A DNA stretch of 64,000 bases from Candidula unifasciata (Eukaryota; Mollusca; Gastropoda; Stylommatophora; Geomitridae). A program made the translations under genes and the position numbers. The stretch covers positions 621,106-685,105 of the forward strand of contig CAJHNH020008543.1 of NCBI GenBank assembly GCA_905116865.2. The letters run 5' to 3'. The notes under the pieces were generated by a model. It worked only from the letters and a program-made list of their open reading frames with translations, was not told the origin of the DNA and did no database searches. This document shows positions 404 through 63,830 of this stretch, piece after piece. Positions within the stretch are counted from its first letter, which is position 1, and each line of letters opens with the position of its first letter.

Positions 404-21937
<21,534 letters not shown>

Positions 21938-38900: not shown

Positions 38901-41900
38901 TTGACTTCCGGTAAAAATGGACGCTAGGCGGGTGGACTGTTTAGAGCCGCGGCAAATTTTTTGCTTCTGCCGGACTGTAGCCGATGCAGTTTTGCTCCAT
39001 TTGTAGACTGGATATAGTTTCGTCGCCCAGTTTCTGAGTTGAATGCATGACGTGACACTGTGAGCTGCGGATTTCATTTGGAATGTTTTTTCGACTGTAA
39101 CCAACGTGGTGGTGTGAATTGTAAGTTCAGAAAATGGTGCGACGCCTGTCGTCACAATGTTGGTGGTGCCCGTATGTGATTAAAATTGATCGCGTGGGCA
39201 ACTGCTGATCTGTTGGTGACTGCTACCATCAATGATGAACTGCATTTCTAATGTCGGACTGTTTGTGTTAGCACTTCGGATGGCTACCGTATGCTTTATT
39301 GCAAGTGTATGCTAGATATGCTGAAACAGCGGTCTGTCAATCTTTCCACAAGGGACTGTGATAAACATTCTGTGTGTTTTTCGCTGGCACAGGAGCGGAG
39401 CAAAGATGGGGTGACCCGTTTGCTATGAAGCTGAAACTAAGACTACCAGACTACCATACACACCACTAATAATAGGCTGTCACAGAAGAAAAGGAAGCAC
39501 CTTCAGCCTAGAGTCGGAGTATTTTAATCACCTGAAACTTATCTCAATTAGCTATGTTTTATTTTTATGTTGATGCTTGCTTGAACATTATCTTTCCCCT
39601 CTAGTAGTTTTGATGATAAATCATTCATCCCACTATTACCATAGATGCTATAAAACAGTTTTGAATTAACATTTTTCTCATTTTTGTAACTTGTTAAACA
39701 TTTGTCTTTCATTTTTTTTTCTTTAGACAAAGAAACAAAGAATTTTAGGTTTTATTATCTGCTTGTTGATGGGGACCTTCTGTCTGAGTTTGGTAAGTTG
39801 AACCAACACTGTTGATGATATCTGTGACATAGTTTGTGCATTCACTTGTATGTTTGGAGAGGTGTGCACAGTGAGGCACACAAGCAACTGTGCCTATGAC
39901 TTCAGTTGTACTAATTTTTATCATGTAAATTTGTATGTTTTAGCATGAAGTACTTCAATTAAAAAATATCTTACACAATCAATCGCTCTCATTTAATGTC
40001 AGAAAGCGGGTGCTAAAATGTTACATAGAACCTATTCTACTGTATAGCAGCGAATCTTGGAATGTCAGTGAACAAATTAGGAACAATTTGGAAGCAGCAG
40101 AGATGTGGTTTCTGAGATGAATGTTACAAATACATTGGACTGCCAGAGTAACTAACAACAGTTGCTTGAAAGAAACTAATGAAAGTAAATCTCTATATAC
40201 AACAATAAGGAAGAGACAAACACTGTTCTTTGGCCACATAATAAGGAAAGAGACATAGGAGAACATCGTGACAACTGTAAAGATCAGTGGAAAAAAGGGG
40301 TAGAGGTAGATTAAGAGTGATAATGCTGGATGGACTAAAACGATGGCATGGAGGGATATCATCAAGAGAGCTGTTCCAGGCAACAAGGGATCATTATCTG
40401 TGGAGACGCATGAGCGCATACACCAGTTGGCAGGGCACATGATGATGATGACTTCAAGCCATGTTGAATCCATACAAAATTTTGTACACATACAAATTAT
40501 TTGTAAGATATTGAATACAGATATTTGCTTTAAATAAAGTTTCTGTAGTTGAATTATGGAACATGTTATTAAGATTCTTGTGTGGGTTTCAGGACCCTAT
40601 TTGTGGGATGGGGGGGGGGGGGTGTACCTACGGCCTTGCTAAGAAACATATTGTAAAAGGTGACACTAATTGCCAACTACCCTTTTAAGGGCCAGCACAG
40701 AAGAAGATGAGCATGCAGACTTTTACTTTATTTAGTTCATTTGAATGTGAGAATTATGTCTTTTTTAGGTCATTTGTATGTAAGAATTTTGTCTTATTAA
40801 GTTCATTTGTGTGTGATAATTTTTTTGTTTCTTTTAAATAGTTAATTTGTGTGTGAGAATTGTATCTGTGATGTTGTGTTATTTGTTGAGCATTTAGTGT
40901 GTAATGCTGTTGAAAGCAATATTGATAGTTGATCGTGTGCTGTGGTTGGTTGTTTCAGGCCTGCTTGTACCTTCCTATGCTAGTCCTCAAGGCCAGAAAG
41001 TTTGCCCTCTTATACTCACTGGGTAGTATATTCATCATCTCTAGGTAAGGATTATGTTTTTGAAAATTTCAACGGCAGAACTAAAGAAAAACAAGACACG
41101 AGACAGTGCTTCTTCTACTTATAATCCATACTGTGTGGCATTAGGACAGACACGAAAGTGCGAAAGACACCTCACAGGTTGCAAGAGGATGTAGAGAAGC
41201 TAGAAAGTTAGAAAAAGAAATAGTAGAAGAGTTAAGGAGTAGAAGGCTAAATGAGAATATTTTATGAGCGAAATTGGAGAGGATAAATAACCTGCTAGGT
41301 TTTGGAAACTTCACAGACAGATGCAAAGGAAAGATCGACCTATCACAACAAGCATTAAATATACTAATAATGGTATGCCAGTGACAACAAACAAAGAGAA
41401 AGGGAAGAGTTTTCCCCACTGTATTGGAAGCTGCCACTTAGACTATGCTTGTCAAGAACTTGTTCCCCCGTCCTACTGAATCTAGCTAATACTCAACACT
41501 CAAGGGAAAGGTCAGTTGGATATACAATTAGACATCACAGTTGGAGCTCCTTGCTTGCTTTTGAAGATGGGGACAAAGAACTTATGGTGGGAGTGTCCCA
41601 AGTGCTGTGATGTAGATTCTTAATTCAACATTCAACACTATAAGAGGAAAATTTGCTGACTGCTGTTGTAAGTATCATTGAAGCATTGCATCCTGTCTCC
41701 TTATATCCACTAGTAGGAATGCAGAGGTGCTGAACCACATGTGGTGGTGCACTGAGTGAGACCACAGCTTATGCTGGACAAGACCTGCCTAAACCTCTCC
41801 ATTGACATCCTAGAAACAGGTTCCCAGCTGGGGGCCTGGCCAACTCAGATAGGATCAGTGTTTTCTTTGGTTGGAGTGCATCTGTGTGAAAGCTGAGGAA

Positions 41901-50815: not shown

Positions 50816-50877
50816 CTTATTACGCAGGAAGGCATGACAAAGGGTCCTTCACTGCTTTGTAATACTTCAAAATTCAT

Positions 50878-51420
50878 GGATGTTGGAATGTCTATCACTT
50901 ATCCATGGATGTTGGAATGTCTCTCACTTATCCATGGATGTTGGAATGTCTCTCACTTATCCATGGATGTTGGAATGTCTCTCACTTATCCATGGATGTT
51001 GGAATGTCTCTCACTTATCCATGGATGTTGGAATGTCTCTCACTTATCCATGGATGTTGGAATGTCTCTCACTTATCCATGGATGTTGGAATGTCTCTCA
51101 CTTATCCATGCATGTTGGAATGTCTCTCACTTATCCATGGATGTTGGAATATCTCTCACTTATCCATGGATGTTGGAATGTCTCTCACTTATCCATGGAT
51201 GTTGGAATGTCTCTCACTTATCCATGGATGTTGGAATATCTCTCACTTATCCATGGATGTTGGAATATCTCTCACTTATCCATGGATGTTGGAATGTCTC
51301 TCACTTATCCATGGATGTTGGAATGTCTCTCACTTATCCATTGATGTTGGAATGTCTCTCACTTATCCATGGATGTTGGAATGTCTCTCACTTATCCATG
51401 GATGTTGGAATATCTCTCAC
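50878..51420. repeat. 29-bp minisatellite open in all three forward frames
   Basis: About 18.7 copies of GGATGTTGGAATGTCTCTCA then CTTATCCAT. Units differ by single bases only. Since 29 is not a multiple of three and no unit holds a stop in any forward phase, three long overlapping frames arise. Confidence 0.97.
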
Positions 51421-53027: not shown

Positions 53028-53172
53028 AGGCCAGATTTTTGACACAAGTAAAGTCTTGGATTTACACTCAGTAAACTTCCGAATCACTTGATGGCATGGT
53101 GTGGTGGGTTATCCAGTTGTGTACCTTTACAGATGTCAACAACAACATAACAAAAAAATTTAGCTATATCTC

Positions 53173-53337
53173 TCAAGAAAACGTCCACTCCTCCTTACAC
53201 AGACCCTCCTTGCAGGCCTGGCACAGATCAGAGTTGTGCTGATTTCGCGGCTTGCCCTGTCGACGATCAATCCTCAGCAGCGGTCGCACAAATCCATAGA
53301 ACACTTGGCCCACTCGGTTGTAGACATTGCCCACTAC
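53173..53337 (-). CDS. 3CxxC protein exon 3 and stop
   Basis: Acceptor ACTTTCAG. Encodes VVGNVYNRVGQVFYGFVRPL through DLCQACKEGLCKEEWTFS and TGA. The last Cys cluster (CQAC...C) completes the zinc fold. The acceptor and first 16 bases of this exon lie inside unit zero of the neighbouring 48-bp repeat. Confidence 0.88.
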   Translation of the reverse strand, partial: VVGNVYNRVGQVFYGFVRPLLRIDRRQGKPRNQHNSDLCQACKEGLCKEEWTFS

Positions 53338-56337
53338 CTGAAAGTAGATGTAGATAATTACAGGCTCATGCAGACGTTGCCAGTTACGGGAAAGTAGATA
53401 CAAATCATTAGGCTACATGTTATTGTAGACATTGTCAACCATAAGAAAGTAGGTAACGATAATTACAGCTGTGGTAAATTTTGCCAACTACGGAAAAGTA
53501 GATAATTACATGCTGTTGTAAACATTGCCAACTACGAGAAAGTAGATGTAGATATTTTAAGATGTTATGGACAGAGAATGAAGTGGTTTGGCCATTTAGT
53601 AAGAATGTAACCGGATTAGATTGCCTATAAGGCCTTTTACAGTAAAACATCGGGAAGAAAGGCCAGAGGAAGACCCAGGAAAAAATGAATAGATGGAGTA
53701 GCTGAATACGGCCAGAAGATCCAGAAAACTGTCACTCAAATCACGCGAGAGGCACAAAACAAATATTTTAAACCACGACACTGGGCTGCAACCCGGTAAA
53801 AGTGAAGAAGACAATAGATAGATAGATGGACATGGCTAATTACGGGATAGCAGATGCAGATTACATCAAGGAAGATTGGCTAATAAACAGCATCCTGTCT
53901 CGGTAGCTGAAATATTTTGGTCATATCAACCGCCGCGACAAAGTGGAAACAATTATAGCAGAAGGCATGGTACCAGGAAGGAGAAGCAGGGGCCGACCGA
54001 CACGAAGATGGGCACAGGATATAAGTGACTCCTTGAGTATTAAAGTACACGAGGCAGGAGAACTGGCGAGAGAACGAGTTTCTTGCAGCAGACTGATGAA
54101 ATTGACATTCTGCAAATGACTTGCTACATGATGATGATGAGATGTAGATTTTTACATTGCCAACTACGTTAAAGTAGGTGTAGATAATTATATGCCGTTG
54201 TAGATGCTGCCTGCTGCGGGAAAGTATTTGTAGATAATTGGGGCCATTGTAGACTTAGCAAACTGTGAGAAAGTAGATGTTGCCTACTACGGGAAAATAG
54301 ATGTAGACAATTACAGCTGTTTTAGACATTGCCAACTACGGGGAAGTGGATGTAATAATCACAGCTGTTTTAGACATTGCCAACTACTGGGAAGTGGATG
54401 TAATAATTGCAGCTGTTTTAGACATTGCCAACTACTGGGAAGTGGATGTAATAATTGCAGCTGTTTTAGACATTGCCAACTACTGGGAAGTGGATGTAAT
54501 AATTGTAGCTGTTGTAGACATTGCCAACTACTGGGAAGTGGATGTAATAATTGCAGCTGTTGTAGACATTGCCAACTACTGGGAAGTGGATGTAATAATT
54601 GCAGCTGTTTTAGACATTGCCAACTATGGGGAAGTGGATGTAATAATTACAGCTGTTTTAGACATTGCCAACTACGGGGAAGTGGATGTAATAATCACAG
54701 CTGTTTTAGACATTGCCAACTACGGGGAAGTGGATGTAATAATTGCAGCTGTTGTAGACATTGCCAACTACGGGGAAGTGGATGTAATAATTGCAGCTGT
54801 TGTAGACATTGCCAACTACGGGGAAGTGGATGTAATAATTGCAGCTGTTTTAGACATTGCCAACTACTGGGAAGTGGATGTAATAATTGCAGCTGTTTTA
54901 GACATTGCCAACTATGGGGAAGTGGATGTAATAATTACAGCTGTTTTAGACATTGCCAACTACTGGGAAGTGGATGTAATAATTGCAGCTGTTTTAGACA
55001 TTGCCAACTACTGGGAAGTGGATGTAATAATCACAGCTGTTTTAGACATTGCCAACTACTGGGAAGTGGATGTAATAATTACAGCTGTTTTAGACATTGC
55101 CAACTACTGGGAAGTGGGTGTAATAATTACAGCTGTTTTAGACATTGCCAACTATGGGGAAGTGGATGTAATAATTGCAGCTGTTTTAGACATTGCCAAC
55201 TATGGGGAAGTGGATGTAATAATTGCAGCTGTTGTCGACATTACCTAAACCCAGAAAGTATATAGAAATCAATTACTTAGTTCCCTGTGTGAGTTCCGGG
55301 ACCCCATTTTGGGCAAAACAAGAATAGACCCACTGCCTCTTTAAAAAGCCGACTAAATAGGGATTTCCTTCGAAGTCGGAGTGCATCTGCTAAGAGGCAA
55401 TGAACTAACAATCTGCATACAAATAAGTCAGATTTGTTAAACGGATGTGCATACAACACTCAGGTTCTGGGACAAGTCTAAGAGGTGGATGAACAAGCAG
55501 AACTTTCCGCCGGAGTTTACAGCCGAGGAACTCCAAGAAGAAGAGGAAGAAGAAGATGAAGATTAGTTAGGTATGATTACCCTGTGATTCTGGTGATCGT
55601 GTGTCATGGCGAGGCATACTAACTCACACTTGTCAACATAGTAACGATGATCAGTTTTGATAACCACCAAGATGAGATCAGTGAAATCAAATACATAATC
55701 GATCATAAAACGACATGATGATGATGATGAAAAACAATGAGAAGAGTGACGACGATGATGACGCGAATCTGCCTGACCTTGATGACCTCCTCAGGATACC
55801 ACATGGCGTGTTGGTATCCCTGGCTCTGACATCGCTGGCATTGTTGTCCGTACAGCTTGAACATGACGTAGCCGCAGTTTATGTGGTAGTTCAAGTGGAA
55901 CCAGAAGATGACTCGCCCTTTCATCGACGTCCAACCGTGGCCACACTTCTAAAGACACGATCGCATCAGAGTAAGATATAAACATTGTGTGAAAAAATGG
56001 CGGGAAGGGGAGGGGGAATATTCCGGTGTCTTGCCTATTTTTCACCAATTTTTACTTTTTTTTTTTTTGGGTCGTCATATATTTCCACGTCCTTCTGTTG
56101 TTGCTTCTGTCACTCCTCTTTGTTTTCCGTGCCTATGGCTCTCAGATGAGAAAAGCACAGGCCTTTATGAAGACTGTTCTGCGTCGCATTTCTTCCACTC
56201 ATCCAGACAGATTGGTTTCGACCGGAATGCCAACTGGCCACATCAGGAAACGTATCCTTAATTCTCGAAAAATATGAATCTCTGTGCATCAACTTTGATG
56301 TTTTCCATATATTTTCTTCAGCCTTTTCTCTGCTTCA

Positions 56338-56407
<70 letters not shown>

Positions 56408-58168
56408 CCACCCCTCTCCCCCCTCTGTGTGTGTGTGTTTGTGTGCGGTCGTGCCTATGTGAGTACGTGTTTCAACTAACCTGTTGTCACATTATCCAGT
56501 GTATTTACTTGTGTCATGTTCATGTATTAACCCATAGATTGCTCACATATGACACAGGTAACTAATTCGCGTCCTTTAACAGGTTTAGTCAAGACCGCCT
56601 CACTGTTCACTGCACCCGTTGCTCTCAAGTTTTCACTGTCTGGTGGGCCCTCGTAAAGTCAGAGTGTGCACTTTGTCCAGGATGTCCGAGCGCTTGCAAG
56701 CCTGCATTTATTGCGGCGCAGTTGGATACTGATCTTTTCTCCGCCCAGCCGGAACAACTGTACCACTTCCTTCTGTAGTGCAGAGTTCTCGATTACTTCT
56801 CCAAGCTCATCAATCAAAGATATATATATATGCTTGACTGCTAATGCAATTTTGGTTCTTTATTAATATCTTACCCCAGATAACGTCACAGGACAGTCCA
56901 ACAATTTAGAGGGTGGTAAGACTGGGTTTACCGGCTTTCTGACCCCAAAACATCTAGAACTGGCCCTAAACTCTACCCACTCAACCCACGAGAGAGTGCA
57001 GCCTAGGTCCCACGAATGCTTGCAGTGTAGGTACCACGACTGCGTTCAGCCTATCTACCACCACCTGAAATATTAGACTGTCCCGTGACCTGTGGATTTC
57101 CCCTGTTTAAGGTAGGATATTAATAAAGCACCGACATGTCTCATAACTAGTGTTTTTAGTGTTTGTAGTTCTGTTGGTAGTATTAGTAGTATCAGCAGCA
57201 GCAATTGTAGTAGTTATAATAGACACAGCGATATTAGTAGTAAAAGAACCCTTTTCCACGCCTTAGATGTATTAGGCATATAGGGCTAGGCCTATATTTT
57301 ATAGACCAATCAGCACTCGGTGGGTAATGTGATCAACATCACACTGACCGTCTTTACTTCTCAGAATATTACCTGGTATCCATTATAGGCTGGGAGCCAA
57401 TGTTATTTTTGACCAAGTCCAGCTCCGTTCGGATTTGAACTCACGATCTTCGGATTCGCAGGATCCATAGCGTCTAGACGCTACAACAATTGTATAAAAA
57501 AGTAAAAGTAAAGGACCCTTTTCCACGCCTTTAGGCGTATAGGGCATATAGGGCTAGACCTATATTTTATAGACCAATCGGCCCAAGATGGGTGATGTGG
57601 TCAGCATCACGCCGGCCACCTTTACTTCCCAGGACTGCACCTGGTACCCACTCAAGGCTGGGTCGACCTGGGAGCCAAGGTCATTTTCGAAAATAGTCCG
57701 GATTCGCCAGGGAGCGAACCCACAACCTTCCGATCCGCGGCGAGCGTCTAGCCGCTCGGCCACGGACAACAATTGTATGGCTCCCAAAATTAGTAGTCTT
57801 GGAAGTATAAGGAGCAATACTAGCGGTAGTGTCGGTAGCAGCAGCAGCAGTAGTAGTAGTTGTAGTTGTTGTTGTTGTAGACGCAGCAATATTAGACGCT
57901 GATGGAAGCTAGCAACCGTAAAAGTATACGGCTCAATAGTGTGGCTGTAGTTGTTTATTAGCAACTGAAGCAGCGGTTGCAGCTGAAGACACAAACGACA
58001 AAAGGGATAAGAGAACAAACTCACCAGGCATGAGAACCTGACCTTGGCACTGTCCTTGAAGACCCGCCATCTGCCAGTGGGCTGGGATAATGTGGGCACC
58101 AGGTACCAGACGTGAGGGAAGTACTGGGCAAACAGGCGGTCAAACTCTCCGTGCCACACCAGCTCCAT
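53173..58168 (-). CDS. 3CxxC zinc-finger protein, receptor-transporting-protein-like (complete, three exons)
   Basis: Minus-strand exons 58168-58025, 55948-55778 and 53337-53173 join in phase 0 to a 159-aa protein with a TGA stop. Order of parts: MELVWHGEFDRLFAQYFPHV and an N-region resembling that of RTP proteins; FSCL-KCGHGWTS, where the first CxxC is built across the exon 1/2 junction; the strand RVIFWFHLNYHINCGYVMFK; LYGQQCQRC with the second CxxC; YPEEVIKVVGNVYNRVGQVF; and SDLCQACKEGLC with a third. This is the zf-3CxxC fold (Pfam 3CxxC) of receptor-transporting proteins, which in vertebrates help odorant and other GPCRs reach the surface; no C-terminal membrane anchor is seen here. A possible acceptor (GATGACAG) sits one base before the ATG, so a 5' UTR exon or a longer N-terminus cannot be excluded. 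Possible polyadenylation signal at 53022-53027. Confidence 0.88.
53322..53550. repeat. Decayed 48-bp units overlapping the exon 3 acceptor
   Basis: TAGACATTGCCCACTACCTG followed by AAAGTAGATGTA at 53322-53353 matches the array unit at 27 of 32 positions and contains the exon 3 splice junction. Three to four further decayed units follow before LINE debris at 53550. Confidence 0.82.
53550..53810 (+). mobile_element. LINE 3' fragment interrupting the 48-bp repeat region
   Basis: Reads RCYGQRMKWFGHLVRM, then RKARGRPRKK and HWAATR. The WFGHLVRM and GRPRKK motifs are LINE C-terminal. Confidence 0.68.
53880..54140 (+). mobile_element. Second LINE 3' fragment in the same intron, ATG tail
   Basis: Reads YFGHINRRDKVETIIAEGMV, PGRRSRGRPTRRWAQDISDS, ELARERVSCSRLMKLTF and ends ACATGATGATGATGAG. 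Confidence 0.72.
54145..55250. repeat. 48-bp minisatellite in intron 2 of the 3CxxC gene
   Basis: From 54346 on, about 19 nearly identical 48-bp units (GTGGATGTAATAATTGCAGC, TGTTTTAGACATTGCCAACT, ACTGGGAA). Earlier units at 54145-54345 are decayed. More decayed units at 53322-53550 reach into exon 3. Confidence 0.95.
55283..55560 (+). mobile_element. GAA-tailed SINE copy in intron 2 of the 3CxxC gene
   Basis: From CCCTGTGTGAGTTCCGGGAC to AACTCCAAGAAGAAGAGG. It lies between the end of the 48-bp repeat and exon 2. Possible one-mismatch flank ATTACTTAG/ATTAGTTAG. Confidence 0.82.
55778..55948 (-). CDS. 3CxxC protein exon 2
   Basis: Acceptor GTCTTTAG, donor GTCAGG; 171 nt, phase 0 on both sides. 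Encodes KCGHGWTSMKGRVIFWFHLN to HAMWYPEEVIK, holding the core beta strands and two of the zinc-binding Cys pairs. Confidence 0.9.
56341..56404. repeat. (CT)n microsatellite
   Basis: Pure CT in intron 1 of the 3CxxC gene. Confidence 0.96.
57245..57485 (-). mobile_element. tRNA-derived SINE (family B), first of two adjacent copies
   Basis: Tail CCTTTTCCACGCCTTAGATG and core in reverse; head ends near CGTCTAGACGCTACAAC. In intron 1 of the 3CxxC gene. Confidence 0.82.
57503..57775 (-). mobile_element. tRNA-derived SINE (family B), best-preserved copy
   Basis: Minus strand: GTGGCCGAGCGGCTAGACGC (A box, tRNA-Ser/Leu-like), GGTTGTGGGTTCGCTCCC (B box), core AGGTGGCCGGCGTGATGCTG, and a tail of ACTTTT repeats next to the first copy. 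Confidence 0.87.
58025..58168 (-). CDS. 3CxxC protein exon 1
   Basis: Encodes 48 codons from MELVWHGEFDRLF to AKVRFSCL and ends at a GTGAGT donor. The open frame continues past the donor into SINE sequence, but homology stops exactly at the splice site. Confidence 0.85.
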
Positions 58169-59363: not shown

Positions 59364-59910
59364 TTAGTTAGTTGGGTTATCCTCATTGCACTCCGGACAT
59401 GTCCATAGGTGCTCAGATCCTCCCCTCAGTATGAACCCCAACGTCCGATGGCTAATAGTACCAGTTCTATGTTGATTAACAAGTCTTCTGGCGTGTCTGG
59501 TGTGCGTCTCGTTTTTTGCTGTGCCGATCTTAATTCCCAAGTCTGCCATTCTGGCGAGTGATGTGGATTCACTGCCACCAAAGTCCTCTATCCTTCCCAT
59601 TTCTCTGAGGGTATTGATAATATCAGCATGATCCATAGGCTGACCGTCGGTAGTGATAGCGGATCCAGCCAACCTGTCAGCTCTTTCATTTCCATCGACG
59701 CCTGCGTCTCCCGGAACAAAAATAAAGGTGACTCCACGCACAGTGGACTTCTGTAATGATTCAAGCCATTGCCTTCGCACTGAACCTGCCTGAACCCTCC
59801 GGATCATACTCATTGAATCACTGAGTATGCATACACGGGTGTATTTTTGTGTTTCAAGCCAGGCAAACGCTTGCATCACTGCCATCACCTCCATCGTCAT
59901 GCTGCTGGTT
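59364..59910 (-). mobile_element. LINE RNase H and C-terminal fragment
   Basis: Minus strand, uninterrupted for 178 codons: MEVMAVMQAFAWLETQKYTR, VCILSDSMSMIRRVQAG, FIFVPGDAGVDGNERADRLA, and a C-terminal zinc knuckle HLWTCPECNEDNPTN. RNase H acidic residues E-D-D are visible; the first Asp lies upstream and is lost. Belongs to the I/R1-like group that carries RNase H. Confidence 0.85.
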
Positions 59911-61364
59911 GCAAAGGCTTCAATTCAAACACAAACAGATGTAGTCACATCTTTCATGGAAACACGGTTATATTAATTAAAGTGTCCAAGTTGTTTACGC
60001 TATACATGTTCTACGGTTACTTCACACAACCCACCGGTTCTCTTCACGCACCCACTACACCAGGGCTTGCGGGCCAGATCTGGGCAAGTAGCCTGTGGAT
60101 CAGTGCCAGATGTTTTCTATTTTTGATGTTCAGGTCTCTGGTCCGTGACTGACGATCCCCTTTTTCAAAAGTTGGCCCCCTCAGTAAACTTAGTTGTTAG
60201 CCCTGCAGAACATACACGTAGAAAACAGGCTTTGAGAAAGTGGCTCCAGAATCTTCTAAAGCCAGACTAAGCCGAGGATCGACAACACGTGACCAGATAA
60301 TCCGGCTACAACATCTCCCGCCGGGATCTGCTCGTATCTCCCGGGCAGCCCAGGCCTGGGCATCACACTTGGCGACCCTAGCAGGGGAAGCAATACTGTC
60401 GATTTAGGGGATCGTTTTTTCCATATTTGTTACCGCCCTTGTTCTGTCTATTAGTGTCGACTCGATGTGTCGCTGTCGCAGCCAGGGGCGGAACCAGGGC
60501 AGTAGGAAGTGGAAAGAGGAGGGGGAGAGAGGCTTAAGCACATTGAAGCCCCCATTATACTTTTCATATAGGGGTTAAGCTGCACCCCTCCCCCAAAACC
60601 ATGTATAGAGCTTGTCCTTCTAAATTTGATGTTCTAGTGTGTCGTTTCTATTCGCCACTCAGCCCATAATTTTATTCACTTAAATAAGACTTACGCATTT
60701 GAGCCATTTTCCCCCTCTAGAAATTTTGTAAGAGGTTCAGAATTACCCATCTCTAAATTGTCTTTGTCTGGGCTCCCCTGGGCTCAACGTGCACTTGTAT
60801 CTTTAAGTCTTTACACCAGGTCGTGCAAGTAACAGCAGGACACACAAACACACATTTCCGACTAAACGAGATCAGCTGAATGAATCCAACATGCTGGTTC
60901 CTGGTGGCAGACATGGCATCACAGAAGGACATCTCTGGTGTTACGGATTAAATCGTTTCTGTCGGATCTTCCATCCACGGCTACCCGGGGAGACATGCGC
61001 CATTTATCACCTGCTACCAGTGGACCTTTGACCTCCTTCGGTGCTGATGAAAATGTCCCCCCCCCCCTTTCCCCCTTCAGTTTTTAACTTAGCTGTTGCT
61101 TGTCATGTCTAAGTTTGTGAAAGTCTCATCATCACTATCACCATCATCGTCATCCTCTTCCATCACTCTATTCACGAGTGCTGCTTTTCAGAGATCCCTT
61201 TGAGTAGTCGCATCAGCTAAGGAGTTCAGTCTTGGTGAAACTCTCTGGGCATGCGGTAAGCAGCTCTGAGAGAGTCCCAGTCGTGCTGTGCAATTATTGT
61301 AAGTTATCCTCTGACCTTTAAACTGTTACAACATGGAAGGTAAATTATAGCGTTACTGGGGACA
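59911..61364. other. Intergenic stretch upstream of the 3CxxC gene, no gene seen
   Basis: Some GC-richer text at 60280-60380 and 60880-61040; no open frame or repeat recognised. It could hold the 3CxxC promoter and a 5' UTR exon. Confidence 0.4.
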
Positions 61365-62614: not shown

Positions 62615-62636
62615 TTTTTTACTCTCTCGCTCGCAG

Positions 62637-63694
62637 TATCAGTAGTAGTAGAAGCAGCAGTATCAGTAGTAGTAGCATTAGCAGCAGCAGTAGTATAAGT
62701 AGTAGCAGAGCAGCAGTATCAGTATTAGTAGCAGAGCAGTAGTATCAGTATTAGTAGCAGAGCAGTAGTAGCAGTATCAGTATTAGTAGCAGAGCAGTAG
62801 TAGTAGCAGAGCAGCAGTATCAGTAGTAGTAGCAGAGCAGCAGTATCAGTAGTAGTAGCAGAGCAGTAGTAGCAGTATCAGTATTAGTAGCAGAGCAGTA
62901 TTAGTAGCAGAGCAGTATTAGTAGCAGAGCAGTATTAGTAGCAGAGCAGTATTAGTAGCAGAGCAGTAGCAGCAGTATCAGTATTAGTAGCAGAGCAGTA
63001 GCAGCAGTATCAGTATTAGTAGCAGAGCAGTATCAGTATTAGTAGCAGAGCAGTATTAGTAGCAGAGCAGTAGCAGCAGTATCAGTATTAGTAGCAGAGC
63101 AGTAGCAGCAGTATCAGTATTAGTAGCAGAGCAGTATTAGTAGCAGAGCAGTATTAGTAGCAGAGCAGTATTAGTAGCAGAGCAGTAGTAGTAGCAGAGC
63201 AGTAGTAGTAACAGAGCAGTAGCAGCAGTATCAGTATTAGTAGCAGAGCAGTAGTAGTAGCAGAGCAGTAGTAGTAGCAGAGCAGTAGCAGCAGTATCCG
63301 TATTAGTAGCAGAGCAGTAGTAGTAGCAGAGCAGTAGTAGCAGAGCAGTATTAGTAGCAGAGCAGTAGTAGTAGCAGAGCAGTAGTAGTAGCAGAGCAGT
63401 AGCAGCAGTATCAGTATTAGTAGCAGAGCAGTAGTAGTAGCAGAGCAGTAGTAGTAGCAGAGCAGTAGTAGTAGCAGAGTAGTAGCAGCAGTATCAGTAT
63501 TAGTAGCAGAGCAGTAGTAGTAGCAGAGCAGTAGCAGCAGTATCAGTATTAGTAGCAGAGCAGTATTAGTAGCAGAGCAGTATTAGTAGCAGAGCAGTAT
63601 TAGTAGCAGAGCAGTATTAGTAGCAGAGCAGTAGTAGTAGCAGAGCAGTAGTAGTAACATCAGCAGTAGTAGTAGTAATAGTAGCAGCAGCAAC

Positions 63695-63793
<99 letters not shown>

Positions 63794-63830
63794 TGTAGTT
63801 GTAGTAGTAGTAGTAGTAGTAGTATACGAG
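62637..63830. repeat. Complex AGT/AGC trinucleotide satellite
   Basis: Built from AGCAGAGCAGTAGTAGT, AGCAGAGCAGTATTAGT and GCAGCAGTATCAGTATTAGT blocks in changing order, ending in pure (AGT)n at about 63700-63825. Confidence 0.95.

Follow-up and report, generated by a model that had tools for sequence, protein, structure and literature searches.

The 3CxxC gene and the array in its second intron

The window, the whole 64,000-nucleotide stretch of Candidula unifasciata DNA analysed here, carries on its minus strand a gene of three exons whose second intron houses a 48-bp minisatellite (Table 1). Each exon holds a whole number of codons, both introns are bounded by GT and AG, and the frame is intact. 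Joined in frame, the three exons encode a 159-aa protein that matches Pfam PF13695 (Zn_ribbon_3CxxC) at 73.6 bits against a curated cut-off of 23. Intron 2, which houses the array, extends from 55777 to 53338 and is in phase 0. A protein search with the 3CxxC product returned 126 relatives, the best 120 of which were used; among the matches listed, the best named relatives are mostly molluscs, with two Bradybaena similaris proteins at the top, and the brachiopod Lingula is included. Upstream of the gene, the minus strand contains an open frame with an RNase H domain at 59364–59924 (PF00075, E 2.5e-07), which is probably part of a retroelement, and about 1.8 kb past the stop codon of the gene there is a 29-bp minisatellite at 50875–51420 (19 copies, 98%).

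Table 1. Positions in the window of the 3CxxC gene and of the parts of the 48-bp array
Feature	Position	Strand	Remarks
Exon 1 of the 3CxxC gene	58025–58168	minus	144 bases; donor GTGAGT
Exon 2 of the 3CxxC gene	55778–55948	minus	171 bases; acceptor CTTTAG, donor GTCAGG; equal length in the paralog
Exon 3 of the 3CxxC gene (last, with stop)	53173–53337	minus	165 bases; 88 homologs aligned across the border
Copy at the exon 3 border (putative seed)	53317–53366	minus	First 21 coding bases of exon 3 (53317–53337), true acceptor AG (53338–53339) and intron end
Four decayed units	53367–53562	minus	Starts 53367, 53422, 53471 and 53515; 12–31% from the decayed-unit consensus
First insert interrupting the array	53563–53822		Putative LINE debris, so named in the earlier annotation
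Lone decayed unit between two unrelated inserts	53823–53870	minus	24/34, against a background maximum of 21/34
Second insert	53871–54146		Contains the open frame 53907–54119
Four decayed units	54147–54318	minus	Starts 54147, 54197, 54246 (partial, overlaps the next) and 54270
Homogeneous core	54319–55230	minus	19 units of 48 bp; mean pairwise difference 4.6%; displaced CAG in 10 of 19
Decayed unit at the edge distal to exon 3	55231–55278	minus	24/34; 40% from the decayed-unit consensus

Tandem Repeats Finder reports a period of 48 with 20 copies and 95% matches over 54280–55242, and this range together with the 19 clean units of the core confirms the minisatellite that the first-pass annotation had placed at 54346–55250. 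The unit has thirty matches over 53317–55278, of which 29 are located within intron 2 and one is the start of exon 3 itself. Each unit joins 21 bases from the exon to 27 to 29 from the intron and thus spans the exon–intron boundary, and the authentic splice site stands at one end of the series, the exon copy being at 53317 and the next unit 50 bases away. Ten units are decayed, with a mean divergence of 25% from their own consensus; nine of them are found between exon 3 and the core, and one (55231) beyond it. From the exon outward, their divergences from that consensus are 31, 20, 21, 12, 37, 22, 24, 29 and 16%, followed by 40% beyond the core. Divergence shows no gradient with position and decayed units are found at either side of the core, which does not support the orderly series described before, in which old units at the exon lead to a young array. 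The weakest matches of the set are the units at 53823 and 55231, for which the background maximum was taken over 123,532 positions.

The array had also been described as split by LINE debris at 53550–54140. Inserted sequence is indeed present there, but not as a single stretch, since the unit at 53823 would divide it in two. The open frame in the second insert resembles the tail of a LINE reverse transcriptase and may be one; a Pfam search of one piece of the insert sequence gave no match. Two plus-strand frames stay open across the array over 54234–55265 (343 and 313 codons) because the 48-bp unit contains no stops in them, and these frames are easily misread as a repetitive protein. The window contains further tandem arrays, among them a larger minisatellite at 9538–11136 (43 bp, 37 copies, 94% matches) and an array of about 1.2 kb with 17-, 6- and 3-bp periods at 62633–63824.

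A paralog of the gene on another contig (C1072, 43000–52500) has the same three exons, of equal lengths, and the same intron positions. The paralog protein agrees with Bradybaena P0002 at 157 of 159 residues, whereas Bradybaena P0001 is matched by the window gene at 135 and by the paralog at 131 of 159 residues, a pattern from which the duplication probably predates the Bradybaena split. The paralog protein is also nearer to other molluscs than the window gene's is; Pomacea P0003, for instance, is matched by the paralog at 142 and by the window gene at 130 of 159 residues. The gene pair may stem from the whole-genome duplication of land snails, an event reported in the excerpted text of PMC12407731. 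Synonymous sites between the two genes are near saturation (dS about 2.5), and for this reason dating of the amplification by the paralog failed; at such a distance, the intron as it was before the amplification is not readable from the pair.

Likeness of the unit to the exon 3 border

The first-pass annotation had aligned the unit with 53322–53353 at 27 of 32 positions. The match is real and far above chance, but the count over the 19 core units is 26 of 32 in 14 of them and 25 in the remaining five, while the decayed unit at 53515 reaches 28 of 32. The 32-mer of the core consensus scores 26/32 at the exon border as compared with a maximum of 20/32 in the rest of the window (123,656 positions, both strands). 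When the stretch 53200–53365 was shuffled 2,000 times with its dinucleotides preserved and compared with the unit in any rotation, the maximum was 21 against an observed 27, and none of the 2,000 shuffles reached the observed value, so that the alignment is better than shuffled sequence gives. That the unit contains the exon 3 acceptor together with coding bases is likewise borne out; the exon–unit similarity begins at 53317 and not at 53322, and therefore 21 coding bases are included instead of the 16 first proposed. Of these 21 exonic bases, 19 agree with the core consensus and 20 with the best core units, whereas none of the 123,678 positions elsewhere in the window exceeds 15/21 against that consensus. 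Given that the core consensus scores 26 and 19 where the background peaks at 20/32 and 15/21, and given the result of the shuffles, a chance likeness of the array to the exon border is vanishingly improbable.

As a control, five further minisatellite arrays (8903, 9538, 17354, 40728 and 50875), picked from 34 tandem-repeat entries for the window, were scanned for copies outside their own arrays. The best outside match of the array at 40728 is 24/28 and equals the continuation of the array at its own edge. The 40-bp array at 17354–17569 gives 21/28 at its edge and 22/28 at 11814, some 5.5 kb off, the latter of which may be a chance match in A+T-rich sequence. The best outside matches of the arrays at 9538, 8903 and 50875 are 21/28, 16/20 and 19/28, respectively. 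Among seeds for these five arrays, none equals that of the 48-bp array in strength and extent, although the control is a weak one that compares sequence matches only. The same scan applied to the 48-bp array ranks the decayed units first, and the exon copy is absent among the 12 best matches listed.

A further explanation is that the unit belongs to a dispersed repeat or to the tail of a transposon, present at many places in the genome and overlapping the exon by chance. Intron 2 does carry other insertions (53563–53822 and 53871–54146), which would suit such an origin, but the unit holds coding sequence of its host gene, and the array query found a match at this locus only in the 1.34-Gb assembly (7,176 contigs; very common words skipped, one candidate scored). 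We consider a dispersed source barely credible.

The exonic half of the unit encodes VVGNVYN, and its conservation was counted in 88 gap-free homologs of the 120 fetched, 32 having been dropped for gaps at this place. Among the 88, V106 is kept in 86, N109 in 87, Y111 in 70 and N112 in 71, while G108 is kept in only 25; GNVYN is present in 18 of the 19 best homologs. Conservation of the peptide reaches beyond molluscs to amphioxus and arthropods. A second N[VIL]Y[NH] occurs in none of the best 120 of the 126 homologs, indicating that no repeat is translated into protein in this set. In the introns of the paralog, no units were found at E up to 1, the sole match being a weak one (E 0.45) in the start of the paralog's own exon 3, and the tandem repeats of the paralog stretch are of other kinds.

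The conserved peptide very likely predates the repeats. Since the peptide is conserved and the paralog has the same intron without repeats, the exon is very likely older than the repeats, and these two lines of evidence make it their most likely template. We strongly favor this direction, from exon to repeat.

Founder state, proposed history and splice signals

The consensus of the decayed units differs from the exon copy at 5 of 49 positions and from the core consensus at 5 of 48, while the exon copy and the core consensus differ at 9 of 48. At the place of the acceptor AG of the exon copy, the decayed-unit consensus has CC. Two of its five differences from the exon copy are thus this AG, and the change could run either way. 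Read in the opposite direction, an intronic minisatellite would have reached the exon, one of its units would have changed from CC to AG, and the acceptor would have moved into the repeat. Such an origin is highly improbable in our judgement, because the exonic half encodes a conserved peptide, which a random repeat would not provide, and because the paralog, whose introns gave no units, begins its exon 3 with the corresponding codon.

Under the preferred direction, from exon to repeat, the founder can be examined for its splice signal. As the first-pass annotation had noted, the acceptor AG is lost at its original place, where none of the 29 intronic units has it. In a star model with a founder that carried AG and with the divergences as measured, the probability that none of ten decayed units would keep it is 1.6e-4, with independent units and uniform rates assumed, and therefore the founder most likely lacked AG already. 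A 50-base duplicate of the exon copy, if spliced, would read VVGNVYNSL followed by a stop, and a 49-base duplicate, the length of the decayed consensus, would shift the frame; a working duplicate acceptor would for these reasons be harmful. Selection against a competing acceptor is a plausible reason for the lost AG, and we hold it with moderate confidence. The third base of codon 107 is T in 26 of the 29 intronic units (19/19 core and 7/10 decayed, the other three having A) and in the paralog, while it is G in the present exon. As judged from this single site, the units may record how the exon read at an earlier time, but the shared T may also be chance, given the near-saturated synonymous sites between the paralogs.

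The first-pass proposal that a genuine splice acceptor was amplified in tandem together with the start of its exon is supported. Our main reading, to which we assign a probability of about 0.9, is that a segment of acceptor plus exon start was tandemly duplicated into the intron, lost its AG early, and gave rise to an array with a homogenised core and decayed edges. In this course of events, a segment of about 48–50 bp, made up of 27 to 29 bases from the end of intron 2 and 21 from the start of exon 3, would have been duplicated into the intron; the founding copy of the intronic family would probably have lost the acceptor AG already, with CC in its stead; and the founder would have multiplied by slippage or unequal exchange, the latter being a mechanism of array growth known from minisatellites in general. 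The middle would then have been homogenised into the present core, and the units at both edges and around later insertions would have decayed.

Although AG is absent from its original place, 10 of the 19 core units read CTTCCCAG directly before TAG on the minus strand, which creates an acceptor-like site one base downstream. The core units with this displaced CAG start at 54367, 54415, 54463, 54511, 54559, 54847, 54943, 54991, 55039 and 55087, and the CAG sites themselves fall within 54387–55107. The TAG, at what were bases 2–4 of the exon, is retained in 23 of the 29 intronic units. Scored with approximate acceptor frequencies, the ten displaced sites reach 2.20–2.69, as compared with 3.77 for the true exon 3 acceptor and –0.24 for the true exon 2 acceptor; on the same approximate scale, the exon 3 and exon 2 acceptors of the paralog score 7.95 and 2.67, respectively. 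Of 124 AG sites in 53100–55790, four outscore the true acceptor by these frequencies, three of which lie in decayed units (54263, 54211 and 54284) and score 4.03–4.87. The earlier view that the repeats would not act as decoy acceptors holds for the original place of the AG only and is not supported in view of the displaced sites of the core and the three sites in decayed units.

Since intron 2 is in phase 0, exon 2 joined to any of the ten displaced sites would have TAG as its next codon, and the predicted protein would be without the third CxxC pair. No further donor would be needed for such a product, because exon 3 is the last exon. It could be added to the main reading that the displaced acceptors are used at times, so that the protein stops directly or shortly past exon 2 and the level of the full-length form is tuned. 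The number of displaced sites and their scores relative to the true acceptor, together with the higher scores of the three sites in decayed units, favor units that are active in splicing, whereas the scores derive from approximate frequencies, and excerpts of PMC3087553 report amphioxus mirages, repeats that span an intron–exon boundary, with AG/GT in many units and without interference with regular splicing. We regard this addition as unlikely. A stricter form of it, in which the array grew only after the loss of AG, acceptors were then regenerated one base off-register (10/19), and the copy number sets the rate at which an immediate stop replaces the last zinc-binding exon, appears rather improbable.

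Relation to minisatellites, mirages and intron gain

Ordinary intronic minisatellites share with the snail array their head-to-tail units, a homogeneous core and diverged edges. The origin of a minisatellite is seldom traceable, and the source of its unit is usually not known. Unlike in these arrays, the origin of the unit is readable here: the founding sequence still occupies its original position, under coding constraint, which makes the direction of copying, the state of the founder, and the loss and regain of splice signals legible. The main value of the locus is as a clear case of a minisatellite whose source can still be read.

Tandem repeats across an intron–exon boundary were named mirages in amphioxus Adh3, a name for which PMC3087553 cites Cañestro 2002, and according to excerpts of the same paper they were also found in globin genes. 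In amphioxus BflGb6, the repeated piece consists of an intron's 3' end plus the beginning of exon 2, and BflGb9 is also listed (PMC3087553, excerpts). Excerpts of PMC3902484 give TnC as a further amphioxus mirage and liken duplications in amphioxus PGBD5 to mirages. The snail array resembles the amphioxus mirages in that its unit spans the intron–exon boundary and the authentic gene copy stands at one end (PMC3087553 and PMC3902484, in part). It resembles BflGb6 in particular in that the repeated piece joins an intron's 3' end to the beginning of the exon that follows, and in that the interior of the cluster is homogenised with the boundary units excluded (PMC3087553, in part).

The differences concern the number, the length and the splice signals of the units. 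There are 29 intronic unit matches of about 48 bp in the snail array, whereas two haplotypes of BflGb6 are described with 3 and 6 units of 150–160 bp in excerpts of PMC3087553. By comparison with that gene as excerpted there, the units of the snail array are more numerous, shorter and more diverged, and its edge units are strongly decayed. AG is kept in its original place by 0 of 29 units, and 10 of the 19 core units have a displaced CAG. Amphioxus repeats, by contrast, carry AG/GT in many cases though not in every one; as far as excerpts of PMC3087553 describe it, retention of AG/GT in amphioxus mirages is a usual and not a strict feature. The host also differs, a mollusc gene here as against amphioxus for mirages so far, which is a matter of range and not of structure.

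In searches of open-licence full texts, no molluscan mirage was seen. The snail array is a well-resolved minisatellite of the mirage type, far outside the cephalochordates, and it extends mirages from reports confined to amphioxus, as excerpted from PMC3087553 and PMC3902484, to a land snail. The case points to a route of broader occurrence by which introns could acquire repeats and spare splice sites.

Rogers, and likewise Gao and Lynch, have put forward the tandem duplication of AG/GT proto-splice sites as a way in which introns are gained, as cited in excerpts of PMC3087553. Like the process outlined in these excerpts, the history proposed for the snail array would begin with the duplication of a segment that contains a splice site. 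In contrast to it, no new intron arises at the snail locus, and the copies lie inside an intron that is also present in the paralog.
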